Below, one piece after another: positions 1,241-12,573 of a stretch of 12,573 bases of DNA. The stretch is taken from assembly GCA_028718265.1 (NCBI GenBank), contig JAQUMG010000030.1:1-12573 (forward strand), given 5' to 3'. Every line of letters starts with the position of its first letter. The first letter of the stretch is position 1. The position numbers were made by a program, and so were the translations under genes. The notes below the pieces were generated by a model that made no database searches, was not told where the DNA came from, and saw only the letters and a program-made list of their open reading frames with translations. The stretch comes from Candidatus Omnitrophota bacterium. Lineage in GTDB: Bacteria > Omnitrophota > Koll11 > JAHIPI01.

Positions 1241-2260
1241 ATGACGATGAAAAAAATAAAAACCGGAATAATAGGGGTGGGCGGCGGGAAGGGTTTTATT
1301 GATGTTTTGCGTGAAAGCGGAAAGGCCGACGTAATCGCTGTCTGCGATATTTACAAACAGCGGGCCGAAGAGACCGCCGAAGAGAAACAAATTCCGCACT
1401 GGTTTGAAGATTACCGCCGGATGCTTGAACTCAAAGAACTGGATCTGGTTATAGTGAGGACTGATGATAAGAACCACGCTCCAATTTCCCTGGCTTCTCT
1501 GAGCGCCGGAAAAGACGTTTTAGTGGAAAAACCTATGGCTATCGCTATGGAAGAATTAGAGGCGATGGTTAAAAAGGTGGAAGAGACCAAGAAAATTTTG
1601 ATGGTCAACTACATTTTAAGATATAACCCTATCTGCCAATTGGTAAAGCGCCATGCCGACAAAGTAATGTTCGGTAAAATATTTTACATTCAGCGAGAAT
1701 ATCTTCATAACCTAGATAAAGAAGGCATATTAACCGGAACCTGGCGAGCCCAGAAGGATGGGAATCACACTCCGATTACCGGTGGCGGCTGCCATGCCAT
1801 TGATGCTTTCCGCTGGATTCTTGAAGATGAAGCCGAAGAGGTCTTTGCCTATGGAAATAAGATGTCTTATTCCCAGAAGGAATTTCCGTCCCCGGATAGC
1901 ATCGTCGCCCTGATCAAGTTCAAAAAAGGAACCATCGGCAAGATACATGCTTCTTTTGGCTGCATTTTAAAATATTACGATGATTTACAGGTAATGGGGA
2001 CTGAGGGGTCCTTTGTCGGCAATAAGTTTTACTACTCCACCAAAGAAGAGGAGGCAGTAAGTACCAACCTTAACTATCCCGGCCATCCCTACCAGCCCTT
2101 GGTTAAAGACCTGCTTGATTCCATAATCGAAAGGAAGTCTCCGCCGATAGATGTTTACGATGGTGCCAATGCTTCGTCTGTTGCTCTTGCCATAATGGAA
2201 TCGCTGAGCGCAGGCAAGCCGGTAAGGCCAAGAGTCTTCGTGCCGAGAAGAGGAAAATAA
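1241..2260 (+). CDS. Gfo/Idh/MocA family NAD(P)-dependent oxidoreductase
   Basis: This is a cytosolic two-domain dehydrogenase of 339 residues, the usual length for the family. These enzymes oxidise or reduce a hydroxyl group of sugars, inositols or sugar acids with NAD(P). The N-terminal Rossmann fold opens with 'G-I-I-G-V-G-G-G' (residues 9-16). An acidic residue follows the second strand (Cys35-Asp36), as is common for NAD binding. The hallmark Glu97-Lys98-Pro99 motif carries the catalytic lysine, and the C-terminal half has 'G-G-G-C-H-x-x-D' (181-188) with the probable catalytic His185 or Asp188. The true start may be ATG 1247, two codons later. The stop codon shares one base with the next start (TAATG, 2258-2262), so it is coupled to URO-D-like protein A. 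The substrate cannot be read from the sequence; a sugar released by this locus is likely. Confidence 0.93.
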   Translation: MTMKKIKTGIIGVGGGKGFIDVLRESGKADVIAVCDIYKQRAEETAEEKQIPHWFEDYRRMLELKELDLVIVRTDDKNHAPISLASLSAGKDVLVEKPMAIAMEELEAMVKKVEETKKILMVNYILRYNPICQLVKRHADKVMFGKIFYIQREYLHNLDKEGILTGTWRAQKDGNHTPITGGGCHAIDAFRWILEDEAEEVFAYGNKMSYSQKEFPSPDSIVALIKFKKGTIGKIHASFGCILKYYDDLQVMGTEGSFVGNKFYYSTKEEEAVSTNLNYPGHPYQPLVKDLLDSIIERKSPPIDVYDGANASSVALAIMESLSAGKPVRPRVFVPRRGK

Positions 2261-3408
2261 TGAAATCAACTGACTACCAGAAAGATTTTGCAGAGCTAAG
2301 AAATAATTTGGAACGTTTGGCCGAGAGTCATAAGGATATAATCGCCGAAAGAAAAGAACGGCTGGTTAAGGCCGAAAACTATCAGGAACCGGACCGGGTT
2401 CCGGTAGTATGCAGGCATGCAATAGACTGGTGGTTGCAGGAGAAGAAAATATCTTGGACTTCGTTTATCCACGACGCCGGTTTGCAAATCAGGGAAGGGA
2501 TTAAACTGGGTATTTACAATTTTAAGGAATTTGGTGCTGATATAGACCTACCTTCCGGTTGCGAGTCGGGAATAAACGTCGGCACCGAGGTGGTCGAATC
2601 TTCTGTCTTGGGCTGCCGCATAAAATATACCGAGGACGACTATCCCTGGCTTGACCTTACCTGGACGCCCATCTCCTCCCCCCAGGAAATCAAAGATTAT
2701 CTGGTGCCGGAGGAGGCAGAACTTGAACACCTGGGGGTAATGCCCCAGATTAAAAAATTAGTTACCGATGACCACGGCTATGGATTTAAAATAAATGGAA
2801 TAACCAACGGCGAAGGACCTTTTGAAATGTGCTGTTTTGCATATGGAACGAATAATTTCCTGCTTCTGCTCAAGGAAGACTCTTTTCTGGCAAAAGAACT
2901 ACTGGAGAAGATGACCCAATTAAGAATAAGGCAGGGAAAGATATTCAAGAGGTGGTTTGACCGATACAATGTTACGGTGGGCGAAAACAATATCGATATG
3001 ATTTCACCGAACCAGTTTGCCGAATTTGTTTTTCCTTATGACCGAAAGATATTCGAAGCCTTTCCGGAAGACATCCCTTGCTGGCATACCGACGCCTGTG
3101 CCGACCGCATTCTGGAACTGATACCCGAATATAAAATCAAGTTCTTTGAAGTAAGCGATACCACAAACTTGAAGTTGGCAAAAGAAAAACTTTCCCCCCA
3201 CCGGATAGTATTGACCGGCAACCTCCCACAGCGGCTCTTTGTCGTTGGGACAAAAGAAGAGATGGAAAGAGAAGTGATCAAATGTATTGAAGCAGCCGCT
3301 TCCGGCGGCGGATACATCTTGACTCCCAATTCACTTATGCGGGATGCGAAGAAAGAGAACATGAAAGCAATGATAGATGCGGTTAAAAAATATGGAAAGT
3401 ATCTATGA
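2260..3408 (+). CDS. URO-D-like (uroporphyrinogen decarboxylase / methyltransferase superfamily) protein A, divergent
   Basis: This 382-residue cytosolic protein has the URO-D TIM-barrel pattern. The 'Y-Q-E-P-D-R-V-P' signature is at residues 41-48, 'C-W-H-T-D' at 274-278, and the closing 'S-G-G-G-Y-I-L' at 348-354. The superfamily contains heme-pathway decarboxylases and corrinoid-linked methyltransferases such as MtaA and CmuA, which bind zinc through an H-x-C...C set. Here His276 and Asp278 occupy the first pair, but the segment after GGGYIL reads T-P-N-S, with no cysteine, unlike the two paralogues downstream. It also carries about 33 extra, charged, probably helical N-terminal residues before the usual family start. 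It is coupled to the Gfo/Idh/MocA gene by a one-base overlap. Absence of heme-synthesis genes argues against a true HemE. The actual reaction is unknown. Confidence 0.85.
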   Translation: MKSTDYQKDFAELRNNLERLAESHKDIIAERKERLVKAENYQEPDRVPVVCRHAIDWWLQEKKISWTSFIHDAGLQIREGIKLGIYNFKEFGADIDLPSGCESGINVGTEVVESSVLGCRIKYTEDDYPWLDLTWTPISSPQEIKDYLVPEEAELEHLGVMPQIKKLVTDDHGYGFKINGITNGEGPFEMCCFAYGTNNFLLLLKEDSFLAKELLEKMTQLRIRQGKIFKRWFDRYNVTVGENNIDMISPNQFAEFVFPYDRKIFEAFPEDIPCWHTDACADRILELIPEYKIKFFEVSDTTNLKLAKEKLSPHRIVLTGNLPQRLFVVGTKEEMEREVIKCIEAAASGGGYILTPNSLMRDAKKENMKAMIDAVKKYGKYL

Positions 3409-3442
3409 TATACACTTGTAAAATAGTTAAAGGAAGTTCACT

Positions 3443-3727
3443 ATGTTTGAAATTAGAAAAAAGCGGTTCCAAAACATCCGGCTGATAGAAAATAACGTAT
3501 CCCGGTTTGAAAAGAAGATTTGGGTTCGTAATTATTACCCAGGCCATCTCCTCTATTCTTTCGGTCATTATCCTTCCCGAAAAGTTTATATTCCGGGAGA
3601 AAAGGACTTTCAGATTCACCTGAATTCGCCCTGCCAGAGTCTGCTTACCGGGGAAATTGTTTCTGATGTTTCCGTTCCCGTAAATTCTTTTTTCCTCTTA
3701 AAACCGGAACAATATGCCGAGTGCTAA
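3443..3727 (+). CDS. Small unrecognised protein (94 aa), beta-rich
   Basis: I do not recognise this gene. It has a good Shine-Dalgarno (AAAGGAAG around 3429-3436, about eight bases before the ATG) and ends 14 bases inside the next gene, an arrangement typical of a real coupled gene. There is no signal peptide and no membrane segment. The N-terminal 30 residues are basic; the rest alternates hydrophobic and polar residues and ends with 'L-T-G-E-I-V' and 'V-P-V-N-S-F-F-L-L-K', suggesting a small beta-sandwich. That tail loosely recalls the C-terminal accessory domains of glycosidases, including the end of the partial gene at the window start. It could be a stand-alone accessory domain or the remnant of a larger enzyme. 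Confidence 0.6.
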   Translation: MFEIRKKRFQNIRLIENNVSRFEKKIWVRNYYPGHLLYSFGHYPSRKVYIPGEKDFQIHLNSPCQSLLTGEIVSDVSVPVNSFFLLKPEQYAEC

Positions 3728-5021
3728 AGGACATTCAATTATGACCGAAGTGGCGCTTTCCGTCCTGTCTGAAAGGATGGCGGCGGTTTGGAGTAAAGAG
3801 CGAGAGAAACTCATTCGTGAGTACTGCCTGTACCCGGATTGGTTTCACGCATCCAGATCTCAAGAGCTGGAGAAATACATGTTTTTTTATCAAAATGAGA
3901 AGAGAGAATTTCATTATTTACCCAGAGAAACGGTAATTGGGAATAAGAAACGCTGTACCGCCGCTTTCATCTTTTTACTGAAAAAAATTGCATTAAATTT
4001 AAAGAAGAACGAGATTTCCAAGGCAGCCAAATATGCCGGAGTTTTGGCCCATTTTTTTGAGGACTCCGCCGGTTGCCAGCATAGCCTGGAAGGACCGATG
4101 GGATTTAACATACCCTTTGGTGTTCCCTATCCTTTGGTAATGCAATTATTTCCCGCGCCGGTGGAGAAAAGATATGTTCCGGCTCAAATGATTCTTTCGC
4201 AACTTAAGGAACCGGAGTTATCCATAACCGGTTATAAACCCCTTTTGCTTGGTGCTTCACCAACAGAAGCGGCTTTTCACCTCTATGAGCGGTACTGGGA
4301 TGTGTTGAGGACTTCGCGGGCAAACGTGGTGAGAGTGATTAATGGTTTCTATTCCGATAACAACGAAGAAATGAACGGCGCATTGAAAGTGATGCTAAAA
4401 GAGGGTGCCCGGGTAATTGCCGACTCTTTTTATACGGCCATTTGTCTCGGAAAAGGATATTTTGAATCGGAGGCCGTAAAGAAATTACAAGAGGTCCACT
4501 TGGAAAACCTTACCCCGTTGTATCGTCCCTGGTACACGCCAATGCCAAAAGTGTATGGTCATAACTGCCTGATTAAAAATTGTAATCTCAACGAAAATTT
4601 CCAGCCGGTTCCTCTGACCCTCTTGATGAAAAAAGATAAGGAGTCGACCCAAGTTACTTTTAAAAACGGACTTGGAACCGGAGGCGGGTTCGATTTCAAG
4701 AAAGACCAGGGTTTTAATTACAAAATCGGATACGATATCCCGCGGGGTATTTTCAGCCAGTTCAAGGTGATAGCCGGATTGAATGCACTCTTAAAGAATG
4801 AAGGCAGGTTTAATTTGCAGATACATTGGAATGGCGAAATAGCCTATAGTACCGGCGTAATCTCCGGTGAAGAGCTGGCTAATGAGGCAATCGTAGACGT
4901 TTCTAAAGGAGGCATTTTAGACCTGGTCTTCAGGAAAATCGGTTCCGGCTATCCGGAAGTTCATGTTGTCTGGGGCAATCCGGCTCTGATACGCAGCAGG
5001 AACGCCCCGATATGGAGATAA
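3714..5021 (+). CDS. Zinc phospholipase C / S1-P1 nuclease-like protein with C-terminal NPCBM-like domain
   Basis: This 435-residue protein appears to have two parts. Residues 1 to about 260 are helical and show a metal-ligand pattern like zinc-dependent phospholipase C and S1/P1 nucleases. His7 lies close to the N-terminus, followed by Asp42 (in Y-P-D-W), His67, and the diagnostic H-x3-D-x5-H at His113, Asp117 and His123. In that family the zinc cluster hydrolyses phosphodiester or phosphomonoester bonds. Residues about 296-428 match the NPCBM carbohydrate-binding module pattern: a glycine-rich 'G-L-G-T-G-G-G-F' strand, 'F-S-Q-F-K-V-I-A-G-L', 'W-N-G-E-I-A-Y-S-T-G-V' and a closing strand. There is no signal peptide, which is odd for both domains. 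The upstream gene overlaps by 14 bases. ATG 3741 is an alternative start but would remove His7. The catalytic assignment is inferred. Confidence 0.65.
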   Translation: MPSAKGHSIMTEVALSVLSERMAAVWSKEREKLIREYCLYPDWFHASRSQELEKYMFFYQNEKREFHYLPRETVIGNKKRCTAAFIFLLKKIALNLKKNEISKAAKYAGVLAHFFEDSAGCQHSLEGPMGFNIPFGVPYPLVMQLFPAPVEKRYVPAQMILSQLKEPELSITGYKPLLLGASPTEAAFHLYERYWDVLRTSRANVVRVINGFYSDNNEEMNGALKVMLKEGARVIADSFYTAICLGKGYFESEAVKKLQEVHLENLTPLYRPWYTPMPKVYGHNCLIKNCNLNENFQPVPLTLLMKKDKESTQVTFKNGLGTGGGFDFKKDQGFNYKIGYDIPRGIFSQFKVIAGLNALLKNEGRFNLQIHWNGEIAYSTGVISGEELANEAIVDVSKGGILDLVFRKIGSGYPEVHVVWGNPALIRSRNAPIWR

Positions 5022-5029
5022 GGAGATAA

Positions 5030-5818
5030 ATGGCAAAAATATTTTTTCTCGGTACCGCTTCCGGAGTACCGACCGAAAATAGATATTGCGGTTCGACCCT
5101 CGTTTCCATAAACAGAGATCTATATCTTTTAGACGGCGGTGAACCCTGTTCCGCCTCTTTAGTTAGAGCAAACATCGACTATAACCGGATAAGAAGCATT
5201 TTTATATCGCATATGCATGTAGACCATTTTGGAGGAATTCCACTTCTCATTCAGGTTATGCAACTTAAAGGAAAATGCGGGCAGAGAAAATCTGACCTCA
5301 AACTGTTTGTGCCCCACGAGGGTATTAGCGGTATAAAAGAGTATCTGAAAGCGCTTTATTTGGTTGATGAACTATTGCCATTTAAACTGAAGATTATTTC
5401 CATAAAAGATAACCCAGTATACAGGGATAATAATCTAAAAATTTATACTCATACCAACAAGCATCTTGGATGGTGGGAAAAAGAGACAATCGCAAAAAAA
5501 TATCCAAAATTAAGAGGGAGTTCTTATTCTTTTGTGATACAGGCCAAAGGCAAAAAAATAGTCTATTCCGGTGACATTAAAGAGGTGCACGAGTTGGAAC
5601 CGTTGATGGAAAAAGCGGATTTACTTATCTTAGAAATGGCCCACGTCCTACCGGAAGAAATTTTCAAATTTTTGGCAGATAAAGCTGTGGCCAAAATTGT
5701 CTGCAACCATATACACCCGGATTGGAACGATAAGGATGACGAATATCAGAAACTTGGCCAAGAACATCTTGGAAAAAGATTCTGCATAGCGTATGATGGA
5801 ATGGAAATAGACATCTGA
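5030..5818 (+). CDS. Metallo-beta-lactamase-fold hydrolase, RNase Z-like
   Basis: This 262-residue cytosolic hydrolase begins 'F-L-G-T-A-S-G-V-P-T' like RNase Z and related phosphodiesterases. It has the full metal-binding set: His61-x-His63-x-Asp65-His66 (bases 5210-5227), Asp182 in 'S-G-D', and a C-terminal His227 in 'N-H-I-H-P'. His205 in 'E-M-A-H' is another candidate catalytic residue. RNase Z trims tRNA 3' ends, but the fold also serves as lactonase, phosphodiesterase and phosphonate-ester hydrolase. The position directly between a PLC-like gene and a GH130 phosphorylase makes a sugar-ester, lactone or phosphodiester substrate more likely than tRNA; this is inference. The start has an AAGGAG Shine-Dalgarno at 5020-5025 and the gap from the previous gene is only eight bases. 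Confidence 0.88.
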   Translation: MAKIFFLGTASGVPTENRYCGSTLVSINRDLYLLDGGEPCSASLVRANIDYNRIRSIFISHMHVDHFGGIPLLIQVMQLKGKCGQRKSDLKLFVPHEGISGIKEYLKALYLVDELLPFKLKIISIKDNPVYRDNNLKIYTHTNKHLGWWEKETIAKKYPKLRGSSYSFVIQAKGKKIVYSGDIKEVHELEPLMEKADLLILEMAHVLPEEIFKFLADKAVAKIVCNHIHPDWNDKDDEYQKLGQEHLGKRFCIAYDGMEIDI

Positions 5819-5851
5819 TTTTATTGGAAAACCATAGAGTGGAGGAGGAAA

Positions 5852-6772
5852 ATGTCTGAACACCAACCATGCAGTCGGATATTGAAAAGATATAAGGGCA
5901 ATCCGATTATTACCCCAAGAGACCTGCCGGGCGCCGGCGCCATTTACAATTGCGGTGCAACCATGTTCCGGGGCAAGTATTTACTCTTACTGTCAACCTA
6001 TGATTGCAACACCATTGCCAGCATGCATGTTGCCACCAGCGAAGACGGGGCCAGTTTTAAAATTCGAGAAAAATCGTTTATTGAAACCAGTACCGATCCG
6101 GAATTCAAGGAATATGACGGTTGGACCATTGACCCGAGAATCACAAAAATTGGCGATGTCTATTACATTGTTTACCCTGCGTATTCACGTAACGGCGTGG
6201 TGGGAATGCTGGGGAAGACAATAGATTTTGAGAAATTCGAAAGGATTGACATTATTTCACTGCCGGATAATAGATGTCCGGTGCTTTTTCCGGAAAAGAT
6301 AAACGGGCGGTATGTCCGGCTTGACCGGCCGGTGGGACAGGTGCGGCCCGGCCAGATATGGATTTCTTACTCGCCGGACCTCGTTCACTGGGGACACCAC
6401 AGGTTGTTAATGGACTTTGGGAGAGACGTGTGGAATAAACTTAAAATCGGTCCTTGCGCGCCACCGATTAAAACCGAAAAAGGCTGGCTGATGATTTATC
6501 ACGGCGTATGCGAGTGGGGCAGTATATATTCTCTTGGTTGCGCCCTCTTGGATTTGGAAAATCCCGCTAAAATAATTGGAATGGCGCCGGGGTATATTCT
6601 CACTCCGGAAGAACCGTATGAAATTTCGGGCCGTGTTTCCAATGTTGTTTTTTCCGCCGGCGCCGTTGTTGATGAAAAAACAGGAGAACTGAAAATATAT
6701 TACGGGGCTGCGGACACCTGCATTGGGCTGGCCACTGCTCCTTTAATGGAATTAGTGGAAGCATGTTTGTGA
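5852..6772 (+). CDS. GH130 family glycoside phosphorylase (beta-mannoside phosphorylase type)
   Basis: This 306-residue cytosolic five-bladed propeller enzyme has GH130 landmarks in order. The N-terminal 'R-Y-x-G-N-P-I-I-T-P' is followed by 'W-T-I-D-P-R-I-T' with the presumed catalytic Asp94. Next come 'V-R-L-D-R-P' (155-160), 'W-N-K-L-K-I-G' (194-200), 'G-W-L-M-I-Y-H-G-V' (211-219) and the closing 'Y-Y-G-A-A-D-T' with Asp288. Family members mostly split beta-1,4- or beta-1,2-mannosides with phosphate to give mannose 1-phosphate; a minority are hydrolases that lack the basic phosphate pocket. The basic residues Arg159 and Lys198 sit where phosphate-binding residues are expected, which favours a phosphorylase, but 'LDRP' replaces the more usual 'HRP', so the exact substrate is uncertain. 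A strong GGAGGAGG Shine-Dalgarno (5841-5848) supports the start and suggests high translation within the operon. Confidence 0.9.
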   Translation: MSEHQPCSRILKRYKGNPIITPRDLPGAGAIYNCGATMFRGKYLLLLSTYDCNTIASMHVATSEDGASFKIREKSFIETSTDPEFKEYDGWTIDPRITKIGDVYYIVYPAYSRNGVVGMLGKTIDFEKFERIDIISLPDNRCPVLFPEKINGRYVRLDRPVGQVRPGQIWISYSPDLVHWGHHRLLMDFGRDVWNKLKIGPCAPPIKTEKGWLMIYHGVCEWGSIYSLGCALLDLENPAKIIGMAPGYILTPEEPYEISGRVSNVVFSAGAVVDEKTGELKIYYGAADTCIGLATAPLMELVEACL

Positions 6773-6811
6773 TAAAGATTTTCTGGAAAAATACGTAAAA
6801 ATCGATTAGAT

Positions 6812-7855
6812 ATGACCCGTCGGGAAAGAGTTAAGAGGGCAATAGAACATAAGCCGGTTGATAAGATACCCAAAGGCGAGTTAAGTATAGACAAAGAGTT
6901 ACAGATAAGGCTCCTGGCCAACGGAACATTAAATGATGATTTTCAAGACGAGGTAAAGGTAAGAAATCTCTTGAACATGGACCTTGTCTTTGAGTACTTG
7001 GACAACCCGCCTGACAGGGTTGTAGAAAAAACAAAAGACGGGTTTGAGATAAAAGAAGATATTTTTGGGCAAAAATATCTTCAAGGGAACAATAATATAA
7101 AAACAATTTCTCATCCTGTTGCTGATATTGTTCAAGCCAAAAATTACGAATTTATCCCCTTGTTGAATTTCCGAACCGAAAGAATCAAGCGTTTGAAAAA
7201 AGAGACGGATTTTTTTATCTTCGGTCAATTGGATGGCGGGTTTAACGGAGCATATCCCTTTTTTGGCTTGGAGAATTTCCTTGTTTATTCTAAAACCAAT
7301 CCTGAAGAGATTGAAAAGTTTATCTGGAGGGCCATCGAGTACTACATTGAAAAGGCAAGCGTTTACGGAAAACTGGCGGATGGAATTATGATTGGTGATG
7401 ACATGGCGGACAACCACGGTACGATTATGTCTCCTTCTGACTTAAGAAAACTTGTTTTTCCGCCAATGAAACATGAAGTGGAATGTTTAAAAAAGAGACT
7501 GAATATCCCCGTATTCTTGCATTGCGACGGAAATATTAATGAAATTATGAATGATATCGTATGGATGGGTTTTGACGGTGTTCATAGTCTTCAGCCTTCT
7601 GCGGGAATGGACATTGGAAAAGTTAAAAAGGAATTCGGGGACAGGTTGTGCTTAATGGGTAATGTAGACTTAAACTATCTTCTTCCGTTTGGCAAACCAG
7701 AAGATATCAGAAGACAAACAATCTGGCTTGTTGAAGAGATTGGAAAAGGAAGCGGTTACATACTTTCTACCTGTAACATTCTGACAAAGGATATTCCGGC
7801 GGAAAACGTTTTGGCCATGTATAACACCGCAGAAAAAATATTTCATAAAAAATGA
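6812..7855 (+). CDS. URO-D-like (MtaA/CmuA-type methyltransferase superfamily) protein B
   Basis: This 347-residue cytosolic TIM-barrel protein starts with the canonical 'M-T-R-R-E-R-V-x-x-A-I-E-H-K' of URO-D-like methyltransferases. Family features follow: 'F-L-H-C-D-G' at 235-240, 'M-G-N-V-D' at 282-286, and 'G-S-G-Y-I-L-S-T-C-N' at 313-322. His237, Asp239 and Cys321 are positioned like the zinc ligands of MtaA-type enzymes, which move a methyl group between a methylated corrinoid and a thiol; that equivalence is inferred from motif position. It follows the GH130 gene by 39 bases and has no good Shine-Dalgarno, so it may depend on readthrough from upstream. No corrinoid-binding protein is present nearby. 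A decarboxylase role in heme synthesis is unlikely in this company. Confidence 0.87.
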   Translation: MTRRERVKRAIEHKPVDKIPKGELSIDKELQIRLLANGTLNDDFQDEVKVRNLLNMDLVFEYLDNPPDRVVEKTKDGFEIKEDIFGQKYLQGNNNIKTISHPVADIVQAKNYEFIPLLNFRTERIKRLKKETDFFIFGQLDGGFNGAYPFFGLENFLVYSKTNPEEIEKFIWRAIEYYIEKASVYGKLADGIMIGDDMADNHGTIMSPSDLRKLVFPPMKHEVECLKKRLNIPVFLHCDGNINEIMNDIVWMGFDGVHSLQPSAGMDIGKVKKEFGDRLCLMGNVDLNYLLPFGKPEDIRRQTIWLVEEIGKGSGYILSTCNILTKDIPAENVLAMYNTAEKIFHKK

Positions 7856-7909
7856 TTTATTTACCAACAATTACTCAGCCAGAGTGATTTTAAATTTCAG
7901 CATAAGAAA

Positions 7910-9015
7910 ATGACCCATAAAGAACGGTTTGTCGCTGCGTTAAACCACAGGGAGCCGGATAAAGTTCCTTTTGATTTTGGAGGTCATCAGTCCGGAATTC
8001 ACAAGATCGCTTATGGCAGGCTGAATGATTATTTGGGAATTGACATAAAAGCGATTGAAATCAACGAAAAAGTTCAACAACTGGCAGAAATAGACGAAAA
8101 CATATTAAGACGGCTTAAGGTTGACTCTCGTTATGTATATCCCGCAACTAAGATATTACAGGAAGATAATCCTTATGTTGATGCATGGGGCGTAAAAAGA
8201 TTGATGCCGGAAGGTGGATTATACTACGATATGATTAAAAATCTGCTTTCTTCTGCAGACATTAAAGAAATAGAAGAGTACAAGGGTCCGGTCGCAGAGG
8301 AATTGGGAATAACAAAAGAACTGGCGGAAAAAGGGAACTATCTTTATGAAAATACGAACTATGCCTTAGTCACTACCTTTCCTGGAATATTTGAAAAATC
8401 ATGGGAGTTGAGAGGTGTTGAAAATATTTTGATGGATATAGCATTGAATCAAAAACTGGTTGAAACGCTTTTTGATAAGGTGTTGGAAATAGAAATTAAA
8501 TTGTATGAAAAATTGCTTGGTTTTATAGGTAAATTTCTTAACCTGGTTATGTTTACCGAAGATTTAGGTCACGAAGATGGTCTTTTAGTTTCCCCGCAAT
8601 TTTATCGAAAAGTTCTTAAGCCGCGACAGAAGGAATTAATTAAAACAATCAAGCGATACAGCAACGCTAAAGTGGCCATACATTCTGATGGCGCCATCCG
8701 TTCCTTGCTTGAAGATTTTATTGAGATCGGAATAGATGTAATTAACCCGGTGCAAGCCGGGGCTAAAGATATGAACACCAAAAGCTTAAAAAGAGATTTT
8801 GGCGAGAATTATGTTTCTGGGGAGGCATAGACACCCCAAAAGTATTACCTTTTGGTTCTCCGAAAGAGGTAAAAGATGAGGTGAAAAGAAGAATTGACGA
8901 ATTGGCTTCCGGAGGTGGTTATATAGTTGCTTCCTGTCATAACATTCAAGCGGACGTTCCACCGGAAAATATTATGGCGATGTGGGAAGTTCTGCAGGAA
9001 TATGGAAAATATTGA
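7910..9015 (+). pseudogene. URO-D-like protein C, interrupted by a one-base frameshift
   Basis: The first frame runs 306 residues from ATG 7910 to a TAG at 8828. It has the standard opening 'M-T-H-K-E-R-F-x-x-A-L-N-H-R-E-P-D-K-V-P' and the metal motif His258-Ser-Asp260-Gly, and it stops just after 'F-G-E-N-Y-V'. The -1 frame then continues without a break to TGA 9013-9015, giving 'F-W-G-G-I-D-T', 'V-L-P-F-G-S-P-K-E-V' and 'G-G-G-Y-I-V-A-S-C-H-N-I-Q', exactly the missing C-terminus of this family. One extra T in the run at 8814-8816 would restore a protein of about 368 residues with the expected cysteine. It is either a recent inactivating deletion or a sequencing error in a homopolymer. The intact form would be a closer match to typical URO-D-like methyltransferases than protein A. 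There is no clear Shine-Dalgarno before the start. Confidence 0.88.
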
Positions 9016-9068: not shown

Positions 9069-10397
9069 ATGAATAAACCTAACTGGAAGTGGATTTTTTG
9101 TCCGGTTTTGCTCTCTTTATTACTCATGGGTTGCACCAACAAAAAAGTTGGTTCCGCGAAAGAGACAACGATTACATTTGCTTCGGTTTATAACCCTTCC
9201 GATGCAGGAATTAAAATAATCGAAAAATCCCTGGATGAATTTGAAAAGGGAAACCCTCAAATAAAGATTAAAAGACTCTGGTTGTCGCCCAACTACAGAG
9301 ATTATTCCCAAAAGTTGCTGACCATGTTTGCCGGAAGCACCTCTCCTGATATTTTCAGGGTAGCGCCAGACATGCTTCCTCAGTTTATCCAAAAAGAAGC
9401 TCTGCTTCCCTTGGATGGATACGTCGAAAAAAGCAAAACCATTTTCTTAAAAGACTTTTTCCCTCAGGTACTGTATAAGTACCAGTTTGATGGAAAAGAA
9501 TTCGGAAAAGGCTCTATCTATGGATTTGGTACTGATTGGTCTCCGGATTTTGCCCTGTTCTACAACAAAGACCTTTTTGATAAAGCAGGCCTTTCTTATC
9601 CTACCAAAAGTTTTTCTTGGGAGGAGTATCTGGAGGTAGCCAAAAAATTGACTATAAGGGATAAAAATGGTCGGGCGACGCAGTTTGGAACTCTACTTCC
9701 CCGTCTGGATCTGCTTATTTTGCAGAATGGAGGAGAAATTTTTTCGCCGGATGGCAGGAAGTGTCTGTTGGATAGGCCGGAGACAACGGAAGCAATCCAA
9801 TTTTTATATGATTTGCGTAATAAATACCAAGCAGCTCCTTCTTTGAGTGAAGAGGCAACGGTTGACGAAATAAACTTCTTTGCCGCGGGTAAATTAGCGA
9901 TGTTTTTTTCGGGAAGATACCTTGTTTCCGATGTACAGCGGATTGCCGGGAATAAGCTTCGTTGGTCAGTAGCCCCTTCTTTACACAAAAAGAAAAGGGT
10001 CAACATGATAACTGGACCGTGCGGCTGGGCAATTTCCTCAAAATCTGCGCACCCCAAAGAGGCTTTCAATCTTCTGGAATATCTGGTGGCCGGAAAAGGT
10101 GAACTAAAACTGGCTGAAATCGGCTATAACATACCGGTAATCAAAAAGGTTGCCTACTCCGATGCCTTCTTGACCAATTTGACGCACCCCCAAGGAATAA
10201 ATAAGTTATTTCTTGAAGAAGCTGAATATAGCTTTTCCAGCCCACTCAATTTTTACGTACCCACAGAACGATGGAGGCAGATTATGGATGACGAAATAGA
10301 ATTAGTCTATTTGAATAAGAAGACGCCTTCAGGAGCCGCCAAAGATATGGCCAGCCGAATAAACGATCTGATTATTTCCCAGATTCAGAAGAAATGA
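9069..10397 (+). CDS. ABC transporter sugar-type extracellular solute-binding lipoprotein (family 1)
   Basis: This 442-residue protein has a lipoprotein signal peptide: a hydrophobic run ending in Leu-Met-Gly-Cys, with Cys22 as the lipidated residue. The mature part follows the MalE-like family 1 pattern: 'T-I-T-F-A' as first strand, 'F-E-K-G-N-P-Q-I-K-I' near 74-83, 'S-P-D-I-F-R-V' in the early third, and 'A-L-F-Y-N-K-D-L-F-D-K-A-G-L' in the middle, where this family is most conserved. Such proteins capture oligosaccharides or glycosides and hand them to two permeases and an ATPase. None of those is in the window: the next two genes are propellers, so the membrane components must be elsewhere. 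An AGGGGG Shine-Dalgarno (9057-9062) lies six bases before ATG, and the stop overlaps the next start by ATGA. Confidence 0.93.
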   Translation: MNKPNWKWIFCPVLLSLLLMGCTNKKVGSAKETTITFASVYNPSDAGIKIIEKSLDEFEKGNPQIKIKRLWLSPNYRDYSQKLLTMFAGSTSPDIFRVAPDMLPQFIQKEALLPLDGYVEKSKTIFLKDFFPQVLYKYQFDGKEFGKGSIYGFGTDWSPDFALFYNKDLFDKAGLSYPTKSFSWEEYLEVAKKLTIRDKNGRATQFGTLLPRLDLLILQNGGEIFSPDGRKCLLDRPETTEAIQFLYDLRNKYQAAPSLSEEATVDEINFFAAGKLAMFFSGRYLVSDVQRIAGNKLRWSVAPSLHKKKRVNMITGPCGWAISSKSAHPKEAFNLLEYLVAGKGELKLAEIGYNIPVIKKVAYSDAFLTNLTHPQGINKLFLEEAEYSFSSPLNFYVPTERWRQIMDDEIELVYLNKKTPSGAAKDMASRINDLIISQIQKK

Positions 10398-11581
10398 AAA
10401 AGATGAAGTCGGTTATTTTTAAAGAACTGCCAGTCCACGACACCTGTTGGTCCATCACCACCGGCAGAGACGGAAACATCTATGTCGGAGTTTGCGGAGA
10501 ATTGACCGGCGGTTTGAGTGTTTTTATCGTTAGATATGATCCGGTAAAGGAAACGACCGATTATCTTCTGGAGGTAGGTCCGACCTTGAGCGAGCCGTCG
10601 GACAATAGCCGGGCTCCGATTTCTAAAATCCACTATTGTTTACTTCCGGGAAGCGGCGGAAAATTATATTGTGCCACCCATTATTCTGGACCACCCCTTG
10701 GTCATCCTATCTGGCGGCCCTGGCATACCTGGGACGACCCGGAGTACATGGCCTCCGGTTTCCATATCTTTACCTTTGACCCAAAAAACGAAAGGGTGGA
10801 AGATTTTGGCGTAATGAGTCCGAACGAAGGCAGCCGGGCAATGGCCCTGGCTGAAAAGAGGGGCTTTTTATACGGCATCACCTGGCCGCGAAATCATTTT
10901 TATGTCTTTGATATTAGAAACAGGAAGTACAAAGACATAGGTAGGATAGGAGACATCAATCCCCAGGTCATCTGGGTGGATTTGGAAGAAAATGGATACA
11001 CCGTGGATGATTTGGGCTGCGTTGTCAAATATGATGCTGATGCGGCCCGATTGGTAAATCTGAACGTCAAAGTTCCCAAAGACCCGCAAGTTCTCTCGGA
11101 AGCCAGAAGCGTTTATGACGCCATTCCTTCGCCGGACGGTAGAAGCATATATGGGGTGACCTGGAATCTGGAAACAGTTCTTTTTGCCGAAAGGTTGTTT
11201 CGCTTTGATTCTGAGGAATGCCGGATTTACGACCTGGGGCCGGCACGCGGAAAAGAAAAACTGGACCATGTTGGCGGACTTATCTTCGGAGATGATGGTT
11301 ACCTCTATTATGCGGTATCCAAAAAGGATAAAAAGAGAAGATTATCATATCGGATGTATTTGTATAGGATGGATGTCGACACCCTAAAAAAGGAAGAGAT
11401 CTGTCCTTTTGATGACGGGGCCTGGCATTCGGAATATATTGCCAAAGCAACCAAGGATTTTGCCGGCAACCTTTATTTTGCTGATACAAACAACCGGCCG
11501 GAAAGAATATACGTTTACACTCCTGAAGGTTACGGCAAGGACTTTAAGCCAAGATGGCCGCTGGTCAGAAGTTGGGGTTAA
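10394..11581 (+). CDS. Cytosolic beta-propeller-like protein (propeller 1), function unknown
   Basis: This 395-residue protein lacks a signal peptide and shows repeated blade-like units. 'D-G-N-I-Y-V-G-V' occurs near residue 26, 'R-G-F-L-Y-G-I-T-W' near 156, 'D-G-R-S-I-Y-G-V-T-W' near 248, 'D-G-Y-L-Y-Y-A-V' near 301 and 'A-G-N-L-Y-F-A-D-T' near 357. Several are followed by a 'F-x-F-D' type strand. This is the signature of a six- to eight-bladed propeller. Blade 2 carries an unusual His/Trp/Pro-rich insertion (residues 95-116, with His96, His104 and His111) that might form a metal or substrate site. Its start overlaps the solute-binding protein stop, so it is translationally coupled to sugar uptake. 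Possible roles are a sugar lyase, isomerase or scaffold; no specific family can be named from sequence alone. Confidence 0.75.
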   Translation: MKKMKSVIFKELPVHDTCWSITTGRDGNIYVGVCGELTGGLSVFIVRYDPVKETTDYLLEVGPTLSEPSDNSRAPISKIHYCLLPGSGGKLYCATHYSGPPLGHPIWRPWHTWDDPEYMASGFHIFTFDPKNERVEDFGVMSPNEGSRAMALAEKRGFLYGITWPRNHFYVFDIRNRKYKDIGRIGDINPQVIWVDLEENGYTVDDLGCVVKYDADAARLVNLNVKVPKDPQVLSEARSVYDAIPSPDGRSIYGVTWNLETVLFAERLFRFDSEECRIYDLGPARGKEKLDHVGGLIFGDDGYLYYAVSKKDKKRRLSYRMYLYRMDVDTLKKEEICPFDDGAWHSEYIAKATKDFAGNLYFADTNNRPERIYVYTPEGYGKDFKPRWPLVRSWG

Positions 11582-11582
11582 G

Positions 11583-12573
11583 ATGCCGATTAAAAAAGAG
11601 ACATTGCGTAAACGAAAGTGGCCCTTACCGTCGTTTCCGATTGGCAGCGAAGTATTCAGAAAAGAAGGACATGGGTCGTCAGTCGTTTTTTATGACGAAG
11701 GTGGAAGAAAATTGATACCAAAAAGAGGAAAGAAGTATTCCGCTGTTCCCTATCCTGAAAATTATCCGGAATCCTGCTATCTTTCAGAAGGCAGCGTTGC
11801 GGCTATTCCGCTACCTTTTCCTCCGGGAGAATGCGCCGTTACTTCTTTAGTTAAAGATGACAAAGGAAAAATTTTTGGCGCTACCACCGGAGAAAAATCT
11901 CACCTCTTTTCCTATGATTCAGCGCAAAATTCTTTCGTAGAATTGGGGAAAATTGCTAACAATTGTCTGAAGGCATCCCTGGCAATTTCTTCCGATGGCA
12001 AGCTTTTCATAGCCACTAAACTAACCTCCGGGGAAGGTTGTATCTATTTTTTTGATTCCAACAAAACTTCTTTCAGAATAAAAAAACTGGTTTGTCCGAT
12101 AAAAGGCGAAGGAGTATCTACTTTGGCGATAGATAACAACTTACGCCTTCTCTATGGATTAAGCAGTAAAACCGGAACGTTCTTCCTTTGCGATTTAAAG
12201 AAAGGTTTGGTTGAATCAAAGGGTCCGGTCGACAAAAACTATCTTTTTTCCGAGACCTTAATTGTTTCCGGCAACGGAGATGTTTTCGGCGGAGCACGTT
12301 GGACACAACTATTCAGGTATAGGCCGAAAGGAGATTGTCTGACCATTCTGGAAACCAGGGCACCGGTAATCAAGGGCAGAGAGATGTATAACCGGATAGA
12401 AGATTTGCTTTGGGATGAAAAAACTGGTTCTATCTACGGTGGTACTTCTGCCGACGGTATTCTTTTTCGTTTCTTTCCAGACGAAGAAAGGATGGTCTCT
12501 ATCGGAAAGGTGTTGAACCAACCACGTATCCGTTGTCTGACAATCGGAAAAGACGGTTGTATTTACGGAATCG
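11583..12573 (+). CDS. Beta-propeller-like protein (propeller 2), cut by the window end
   Basis: An open frame starts at ATG 11583, one base after the previous stop, and is still open at the window end, giving 330 visible residues. A GGGG stretch at 11574-11577 may serve as ribosome-binding site. The N-terminus is basic and not a signal peptide. From about residue 86 there are at least five blade-like repeats of about 45-50 residues: 'K-G-K-I-F-G-A-T-T' (94), 'D-G-K-L-F-I-A-T' (138), 'L-R-L-L-Y-G-L-S-S' (187), 'N-G-D-V-F-G-G-A' (231), 'T-G-S-I-Y-G-G-T-S' (281), with another starting 'D-G-C-I-Y-G' (324). Each is usually followed by an aromatic 'L-F-x-Y/F' strand. It shares the Tyr/Phe-Gly-x-Thr blade motif with propeller 1, suggesting common ancestry or paired function. 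The specific function is unknown. Confidence 0.8.
   Translation, partial: MPIKKETLRKRKWPLPSFPIGSEVFRKEGHGSSVVFYDEGGRKLIPKRGKKYSAVPYPENYPESCYLSEGSVAAIPLPFPPGECAVTSLVKDDKGKIFGATTGEKSHLFSYDSAQNSFVELGKIANNCLKASLAISSDGKLFIATKLTSGEGCIYFFDSNKTSFRIKKLVCPIKGEGVSTLAIDNNLRLLYGLSSKTGTFFLCDLKKGLVESKGPVDKNYLFSETLIVSGNGDVFGGARWTQLFRYRPKGDCLTILETRAPVIKGREMYNRIEDLLWDEKTGSIYGGTSADGILFRFFPDEERMVSIGKVLNQPRIRCLTIGKDGCIYGI

Follow-up and report, generated by a model that had tools for sequence, protein, structure and literature searches.

URO-D-superfamily proteins in a sugar operon of an Omnitrophota bacterium as candidate corrinoid-dependent sugar O-demethylases

The window analyzed here (the whole stretch of 12,573 nucleotides from contig JAQUMG010000030.1 of a Candidatus Omnitrophota bacterium, assembly GCA_028718265.1) carries genes for three proteins of the URO-D superfamily, which we call URO-D1, URO-D2, and URO-D3, among genes that point to sugar use. 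It is a single, densely packed operon on the + strand, with intergenic gaps of no more than 55 bp (counting URO-D3 to position 9014) and several start codons that overlap the preceding stop codon. In order, the genes encode a protein truncated at its N terminus, a lectin-like protein, a Gfo/Idh oxidoreductase, URO-D1, a 94-aa open reading frame (ORF), a protein with an NPCBM domain, a metallo-hydrolase, a GH130 enzyme, URO-D2, URO-D3, a solute-binding protein (SBP), and two proteins without a Pfam family. A scan for promoters and terminators stayed at chance level (15 terminator-like sites vs 14.6 expected). No B12-binding domain and no domain of the ATP-dependent reductive activase of corrinoid proteins (RACE) was found by Pfam among the scanned ORFs of the window. 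A first-pass annotation had described three dissimilar URO-D-like proteins sharing a transcription unit with genes for a GH130 phosphorylase, a Gfo/Idh/MocA dehydrogenase, and a sugar-binding lipoprotein, with neither corrinoid protein nor reactivase in view, and the layout bears this out.

All three URO-D proteins match PF01208 and are encoded on the + strand: URO-D1 (382 aa) at 2260..3408 (E 4.7e-31), URO-D2 (347 aa) at 6812..7855 (E 2.2e-26), and URO-D3 at 7910..9014. They are indeed dissimilar, with 24% identity between URO-D1 and URO-D2 over 226 aa, 25% between URO-D2 and URO-D3 over 304 aa, and a match of only 18 aa between URO-D1 and URO-D3; in a FastTree tree, they sit on separate branches of the superfamily. 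URO-D3 is not the one open frame that it was first taken for. Its ORF (7910-8830; PF01208 E 7.4e-8) stops at 8830, and the C-terminal URO-D motif persists in another frame downstream (8810-9014). The gene is therefore either truly frameshifted or broken by an assembly indel.

The URO-D barrel fold expected of a UroD-superfamily corrinoid methyltransferase is present, as is, in URO-D2, the pattern of a histidine plus Cys or carboxylate at the metal site. In the alignment, His237-Asp239-Cys321 of URO-D2 correspond to the His-Cys-Cys of MtaA, with D239 in the position of one of the two Cys, and Glu23 and Asp197 are invariant. H237 and D239 are invariant in 21 rows, C321 occurs in 15 of 20, and the third metal ligand varies. 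URO-D1 has H276-x-D278 at the metal-site position, with an Asn close to where the third ligand would be. Replacement of Cys by a carboxylate has been described in the metal site of O-methyltransferases (PMC10418091), and zinc is not needed by every UroD-superfamily corrinoid methyltransferase (e.g., CdmB). The best PDB sequence match of URO-D1 (predicted model pLDDT 83.5) is CdmB (9rui, E 2.4e-10), which is absent among the matches listed in the structure searches with URO-D1 and URO-D2. Foldseek placed MtaA (4ay8, E 2.1e-15) first for URO-D2. The first-pass annotation had looked to structure for a decision; predicted fold and metal-site pattern suit a corrinoid methyltransferase without being decisive. 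The structure libraries did not separate HemE-like from MtaA-like proteins (Z scores tied for URO-D2, HemE first for URO-D1).

In an IQ-TREE phylogeny (LG+C20) with 84 rows, URO-D2 belongs to a clade of 23 rows (support 98/91) that spans Bacillota, Planctomycetota, spirochaetes, and archaea. A second clade of 11 rows (99/96), from Clostridium, Pelotomaculum, Deltaproteobacteria, and others, joins it on a branch supported at 100/97. At 10 of 15 loci of this sister clade, a corrinoid protein, RACE, or MeTr gene lies within 8 kb, so that URO-D2 groups with operon-linked corrinoid methyltransferases I, as their sister. All 15 sister-clade rows have the G-E, DD-A, and H-x-D-G positions in common, and so do the URO-D2-type rows, save L033_8, L006_6, and L009_2, which differ in at least one. 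It should be noted that patterns derived from the URO-D2 clade served to retrieve the loci, so that the sister clade as seen here extends only as far as these patterns do.

These patterns led to 53 loci in named genomes, 36 of them of URO-D2 type (L001-L030, L032-L034, L039, L051, and L052); L031, L035-L038, and L040-L050 were set aside as belonging to the sister type or to a distant one, as was L053, whose match is short and lies where its contig ends. Within 8 kb of the 36 loci, we found further URO-D genes at 22, GH38 alpha-mannosidase at 16, ABC sugar permeases at 12, Gfo/Idh at four, and mannose-6-phosphate isomerase at two; D-lyxose isomerase accounts for 3 of 79 scanned neighbors. It is usual, although not essential, for the operons of UroD-superfamily corrinoid methyltransferases to include a corrinoid protein and an activase. 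As in the window, no corrinoid protein or activase gene was detected within 8 kb of any of the 36 loci, and no folate methyltransferase gene was detected there either. In this tally, neighbors took their labels from BLAST matches to clusters that had been named after a few members scanned with Pfam; several contigs end short of 8 kb, and diverged genes for a corrinoid protein or activase may have been overlooked. At three loci without GH38 (L007, L018, and L008; two archaeal and one Bacteroidales metagenome-assembled genome contigs), the URO-D2-type gene lies beside a neutral-ceramidase-like protein, a label (PF04734) that comes from the L007 member.

The missing partners turn up elsewhere in the genomes of relatives. 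The genome search covered 37 genomes from 38 of the 53 loci (all but L033, L026, L036, L037, L040, L043-L045, and L047-L053; L015 has the strain name of L013), and tallies of 36/37 include six sister-clade genomes. Among the 31 genomes with URO-D2-type loci, the corrinoid protein domain PF02607 occurs in 30 (all but G017), each with a match in an open frame of <400 aa, and RACE (PF14574) also occurs in 30 (all but G028), compared with 9 and 1, respectively, of 14 control genomes. The suggestion in the first-pass annotation that the partner would be encoded elsewhere thus holds, in relatives. These 31 genomes have from 4 to at least 41 URO-D matches each, and in 14 of them neither MttB nor MtaB was found.

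Twenty loci of this presumed hub (corrinoid protein and RACE) were fetched. In eight (L054, L055, L057, L058, L059, L061, L062, and L063), corrinoid protein and RACE genes lie side by side, and no URO-D, MttB, or MtaB was found in the stretches around these pairs, some of which are on short contigs. As for the other 12, L066 is a corrinoid/RACE pair whose contig measures 3.5 kb, MtaB adjoins RACE in L060 and L065, L056 has a URO-D nearby, and L067 is a full URO-D/MeTr/corrinoid/RACE operon, the only fetched hub locus in which MeTr was seen; by BLAST label, L064 and L068-L073 have only one of corrinoid protein and RACE, or neither (L072). The clearest case is the Christensenella chromosome, with 19 URO-D matches, a single corrinoid protein, which has both B12 domains, and a single RACE adjoining it; no MttB or MtaB was found on the chromosome, and no URO-D, MttB, or MtaB in 20 kb around the pair. 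Both B12 domains are present in the two hub corrinoid proteins that were scanned. In Faecalicatena orotica (L061:7850-16459), the corrinoid/RACE pair is followed by genes for cobalt uptake (cbiM, cbiN, and cbiQ), an ABC ATPase, and genes for corrin synthesis (cbiK and cbiD). CbiQ is also encoded downstream from the corrinoid/RACE pair at L056:8583-17584.

RACE is not rare in these groups (it occurs in 86 of 150 genomes of the F. orotica family), and the comparison was therefore made within a family and within a phylum. In the F. orotica family, RACE is present in 25/25 genomes with at least three URO-D matches vs 61/125 others (Fisher p 1.9e-7), and in 10/10 with at least seven vs 76/140 (p 0.005); several of the 25 reach three matches via mlp-type clusters with URO-Ds next to RACE. 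In the phylum of a Sedimentisphaerales genome (199 genomes), the counts are 26/31 with at least four matches vs 40/168 (p 3.0e-10), and 22/25 with at least seven vs 44/174 (p 1.8e-9). Removal of weak PF14574 matches with a by-hand cut near E 1e-40 (20 and 9 genomes, respectively) gives 25/25 vs 41/125 and 26/31 vs 31/168. The thresholds were set after the tables had been seen, and the statistics are uncorrected for kinship; matches are stretches, so that one gene may count twice, and the number per genome is a lower bound.

On balance, we lean, if only slightly, toward the view that the URO-Ds, most surely URO-D2, are corrinoid-dependent sugar O-demethylases that share one B12 protein encoded at a distance. 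What was observed is the operon, the clade, the sister clade in corrinoid operons, the genome co-occurrence in relatives, and the hub pairs without an adjoining corrinoid-type methyltransferase; the methyl transfer, the sugar substrate, the contact between hub and spokes, the metal, and a hub in the genome of the window are what we infer. As a methyltransferase I, the URO-D would take O-methyl groups off imported methylated mannose-type sugars or glycosides, with the metal site (His-Asp-Cys in URO-D2) binding the ether oxygen and the Co(I) of a small corrinoid protein accepting the methyl group. That protein and its RACE, whose genes would lie far from the sugar operon, would form a hub shared by many URO-D spokes. 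Once demethylated, the sugar would pass to the GH130 phosphorylase and the dehydrogenase, and the methyl group might end on tetrahydrofolate, which is a guess. A methyltransferase I role is less certain for URO-D1 and URO-D3 than for URO-D2.

Several observations weigh against this reading. The placement of URO-D1 changes between trees and URO-D3 is only in the FastTree tree, both being placed poorly, and we therefore rely on neither; the earlier idea of methyl-removing URO-Ds in an operon for methylated sugars is partly supported, through the sister relation of URO-D2, and less firmly based for the other two. The corrinoid and RACE counts come from relatives, not from the genome of the window itself. 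The planctomycete genome G247 has 38 non-HemE URO-Ds, no RACE, and only a MetH-sized PF02607 protein. MttB-family and MetF genes neighbor some of these URO-Ds (L150-L161), and G247 may use a second, activase-free mode. Aerobic bacteria can share one B12 domain between betaine demethylation and methionine synthesis (PMC12478193); by analogy, it is conceivable that MetH acts as the methyl carrier in G247.

The GH130 gene, too, is an uncommon companion. Run against the ORFs of the window and of the fetched loci, a profile of 120 GH130 homologues recovered no GH130 other than that of the window itself, and GH130 is absent among the 25 of 115 families listed in a Pfam tally of 79 of 162 neighbors; a wide recurrence of the GH130 neighborhood is not supported. 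Two of the seven closest URO-D2 homologues are on contigs equal in size (13,514 and 5,394 bp) and source to contigs with GH130 homologues. With shifted sizes, tested with 119 contig sizes from the GH130 homologues, two or more such matches arose by chance in 79 of 50,000 trials, and the pairing of GH130 with URO-D2 therefore probably recurs in near kin, judging only from equal contig sizes. The recurring neighborhood that the first-pass annotation had anticipated exists in the form of URO-Ds with sugar catabolism across phyla, in which GH38 takes the place of GH130; GH130, Gfo, and URO-D all together are a rare combination.

Three other explanations deserve weighing. The domain and fold are those of uroporphyrinogen decarboxylases, and the proteins could be the ordinary enzymes of heme synthesis. 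We rejected this because of the hemE equivalog scores (27.9 for URO-D1, 28.1 for URO-D2, and no match for URO-D3, vs a cut-off of 302.95); the sugar-operon setting and the copy numbers in related genomes also speak against it, and a heme role is very improbable. Alternatively, the barrel may have been recruited for another sugar reaction that needs no corrinoid (isomerization, elimination, or decarboxylation), so that the sugar-operon URO-Ds would not be methyltransferases at all. The variable third metal ligand, the lack of a detected corrinoid gene at all 36 loci, and the absence of RACE from G247 and four further URO-D-rich planctomycete genomes would fit. However, the sister clade in corrinoid operons keeps equal active-site positions, RACE is in nearly all of the related genomes, and the hub pairs have no corrinoid-type methyltransferase of their own, and we consider this alternative unlikely.

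It is also possible that the corrinoid chemistry is as proposed and that the methyl group comes from the aglycone part of a plant glycoside (e.g., a methoxylated phenol), with glycosidases and a DgpA-like dehydrogenase only stripping the sugar. The UroD O-demethylases MtvB, OdmB, and VdmB act on methoxylated aromatics ("MACs") (PMC13222342), the closest solved protein by sequence to the window's Gfo/Idh protein is DgpA, and CdmB heads the PDB matches of URO-D1. The recurring partners are nevertheless enzymes of mannose metabolism (GH38, mannose-6-phosphate isomerase, D-lyxose isomerase, and, in the window, GH130), and a locus with a number of distinct URO-Ds would match a glycan methylated at more than one position. 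We would not expect the aglycone to prove the donor.

The case for a mannose-type glycan is that the GH130 enzyme is near mannosyl phosphorylases, that GH38 recurs in kin, and that methylated oligomannose N-glycans exist. The GH130 mannosyl phosphorylase (5852..6772, +; PF04041 E 6.9e-52) scores 176.8 bits against a gathering score of 26 and stays below the NCBIfam equivalog cut-offs; its nearest solved enzymes by PDB sequence search are TM1225, UHGB_MP, and a beta-1,4-mannooligosaccharide phosphorylase (5ayd), and some homologues are annotated as mannosyl-N-acetylglucosamine phosphorylase. The Gfo/Idh/MocA oxidoreductase (1241..2260, +; PF01408 E 1.9e-23), whose stop codon overlaps the start of URO-D1, has as its top PDB matches 9m3d and 7xr9, both DgpA proteins, which are glycoside oxidases. 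The SBP (9069..10397, +; PF01547 E 1.5e-35) is probably for sugar, and downstream from it, at 10394-12572, are the two adjoining proteins without a Pfam family. The remaining + strand genes are less telling: the protein at 495-1217 passes the PF07953 cut-off barely (24.6 vs 23.8), suggesting a lectin-like fold and no more; the 94-aa ORF (3443..3727) has no family in the domain scan; the next protein (3714..5021) has a C-terminal NPCBM domain (PF08305 E 6.8e-8); and the metallo-beta-lactamase-fold hydrolase (5030..5818; PF12706 E 1.6e-14) is RNase Z-like and under the NCBIfam cut-offs.

Among known systems, the UroD-superfamily corrinoid O-demethylases and the dehalogenase methyltransferase I (MtvB, OdmB, VdmB, MtoB, and CdmB) resemble the URO-D2 type in fold and in the reliance on a corrinoid protein and RACE that is expected of it, and UroD-superfamily O-methyltransferases share the carboxylate in the metal site. 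However, the Cdm gene cluster has its own corrinoid protein, whereas the URO-D2 type is in sugar operons with the corrinoid pair elsewhere, and Cdm and the named O-demethylases act on haloalkanes or methoxyaromatics. MtaA/MtbA and the type 1 mlp clusters (soluble CoM methyltransferase-like) are alike in structure, given the Foldseek match, but we rejected membership of this SCMT/Mlp group: the site is His-Asp-Cys rather than His-Cys-Cys, NCBIfam scores are 29-75 bits (URO-D1 and URO-D2) vs cut-offs of 235-600, and the tree branch is separate. Mannan and N-glycan loci with GH38 and GH130 are similar to the window in GH130 and to related loci in GH38, the URO-D loci differing by their several URO-Ds. 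Aerobic O-demethylation of 6-O-methyl-galactose from porphyran by cytochrome P450, as reported in PMC10033563, accomplishes the equal task of removing a sugar methyl ether, but with a monooxygenase that yields formaldehyde. No P450 domain was found by Pfam among the scanned ORFs of the window.

Among the papers listed by searches of the open literature, we found none in which sugars are demethylated by corrinoid enzymes or URO-Ds accompany mannosidases, none on loci that pair GH38/GH130 with several URO-Ds (one with GH38 and uroporphyrinogen concerns other genes), and no experiment on a member of the URO-D2 clade. What this analysis adds is that the URO-D2 type is sister to enzymes of corrinoid operons, together with the proposed arrangement of a hub and its spokes. 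O-methylated oligomannose N-glycans with 3-O- and 3,6-di-O-methyl-mannose are described for Chlorella (PMC6344472), and O-methylated N-glycans are also reported from mosses and molluscs. A broader proposal, which we offer tentatively and with rather more doubt than belief, is that anaerobes of several phyla and both prokaryotic domains eat such glycans by removing the methyl ethers with banks of URO-Ds, spread across many sugar operons, that all bind a common corrinoid protein with its activase and would feed the methyl groups into one-carbon metabolism.

Glycans of algae, mosses, and molluscs contain methylated sugars. The sole sugar demethylase route that we found in the open literature searched is the P450 monooxygenase. 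If the proposed role of the URO-Ds is true, it would explain the tens of “uroporphyrinogen decarboxylase” genes in some gut and sediment anaerobes and give a function to a large, misnamed group of proteins. It would also tie glycan decay to B12 and one-carbon metabolism, with one B12 protein serving many partners and allowing use of methylated sugars free of O2.

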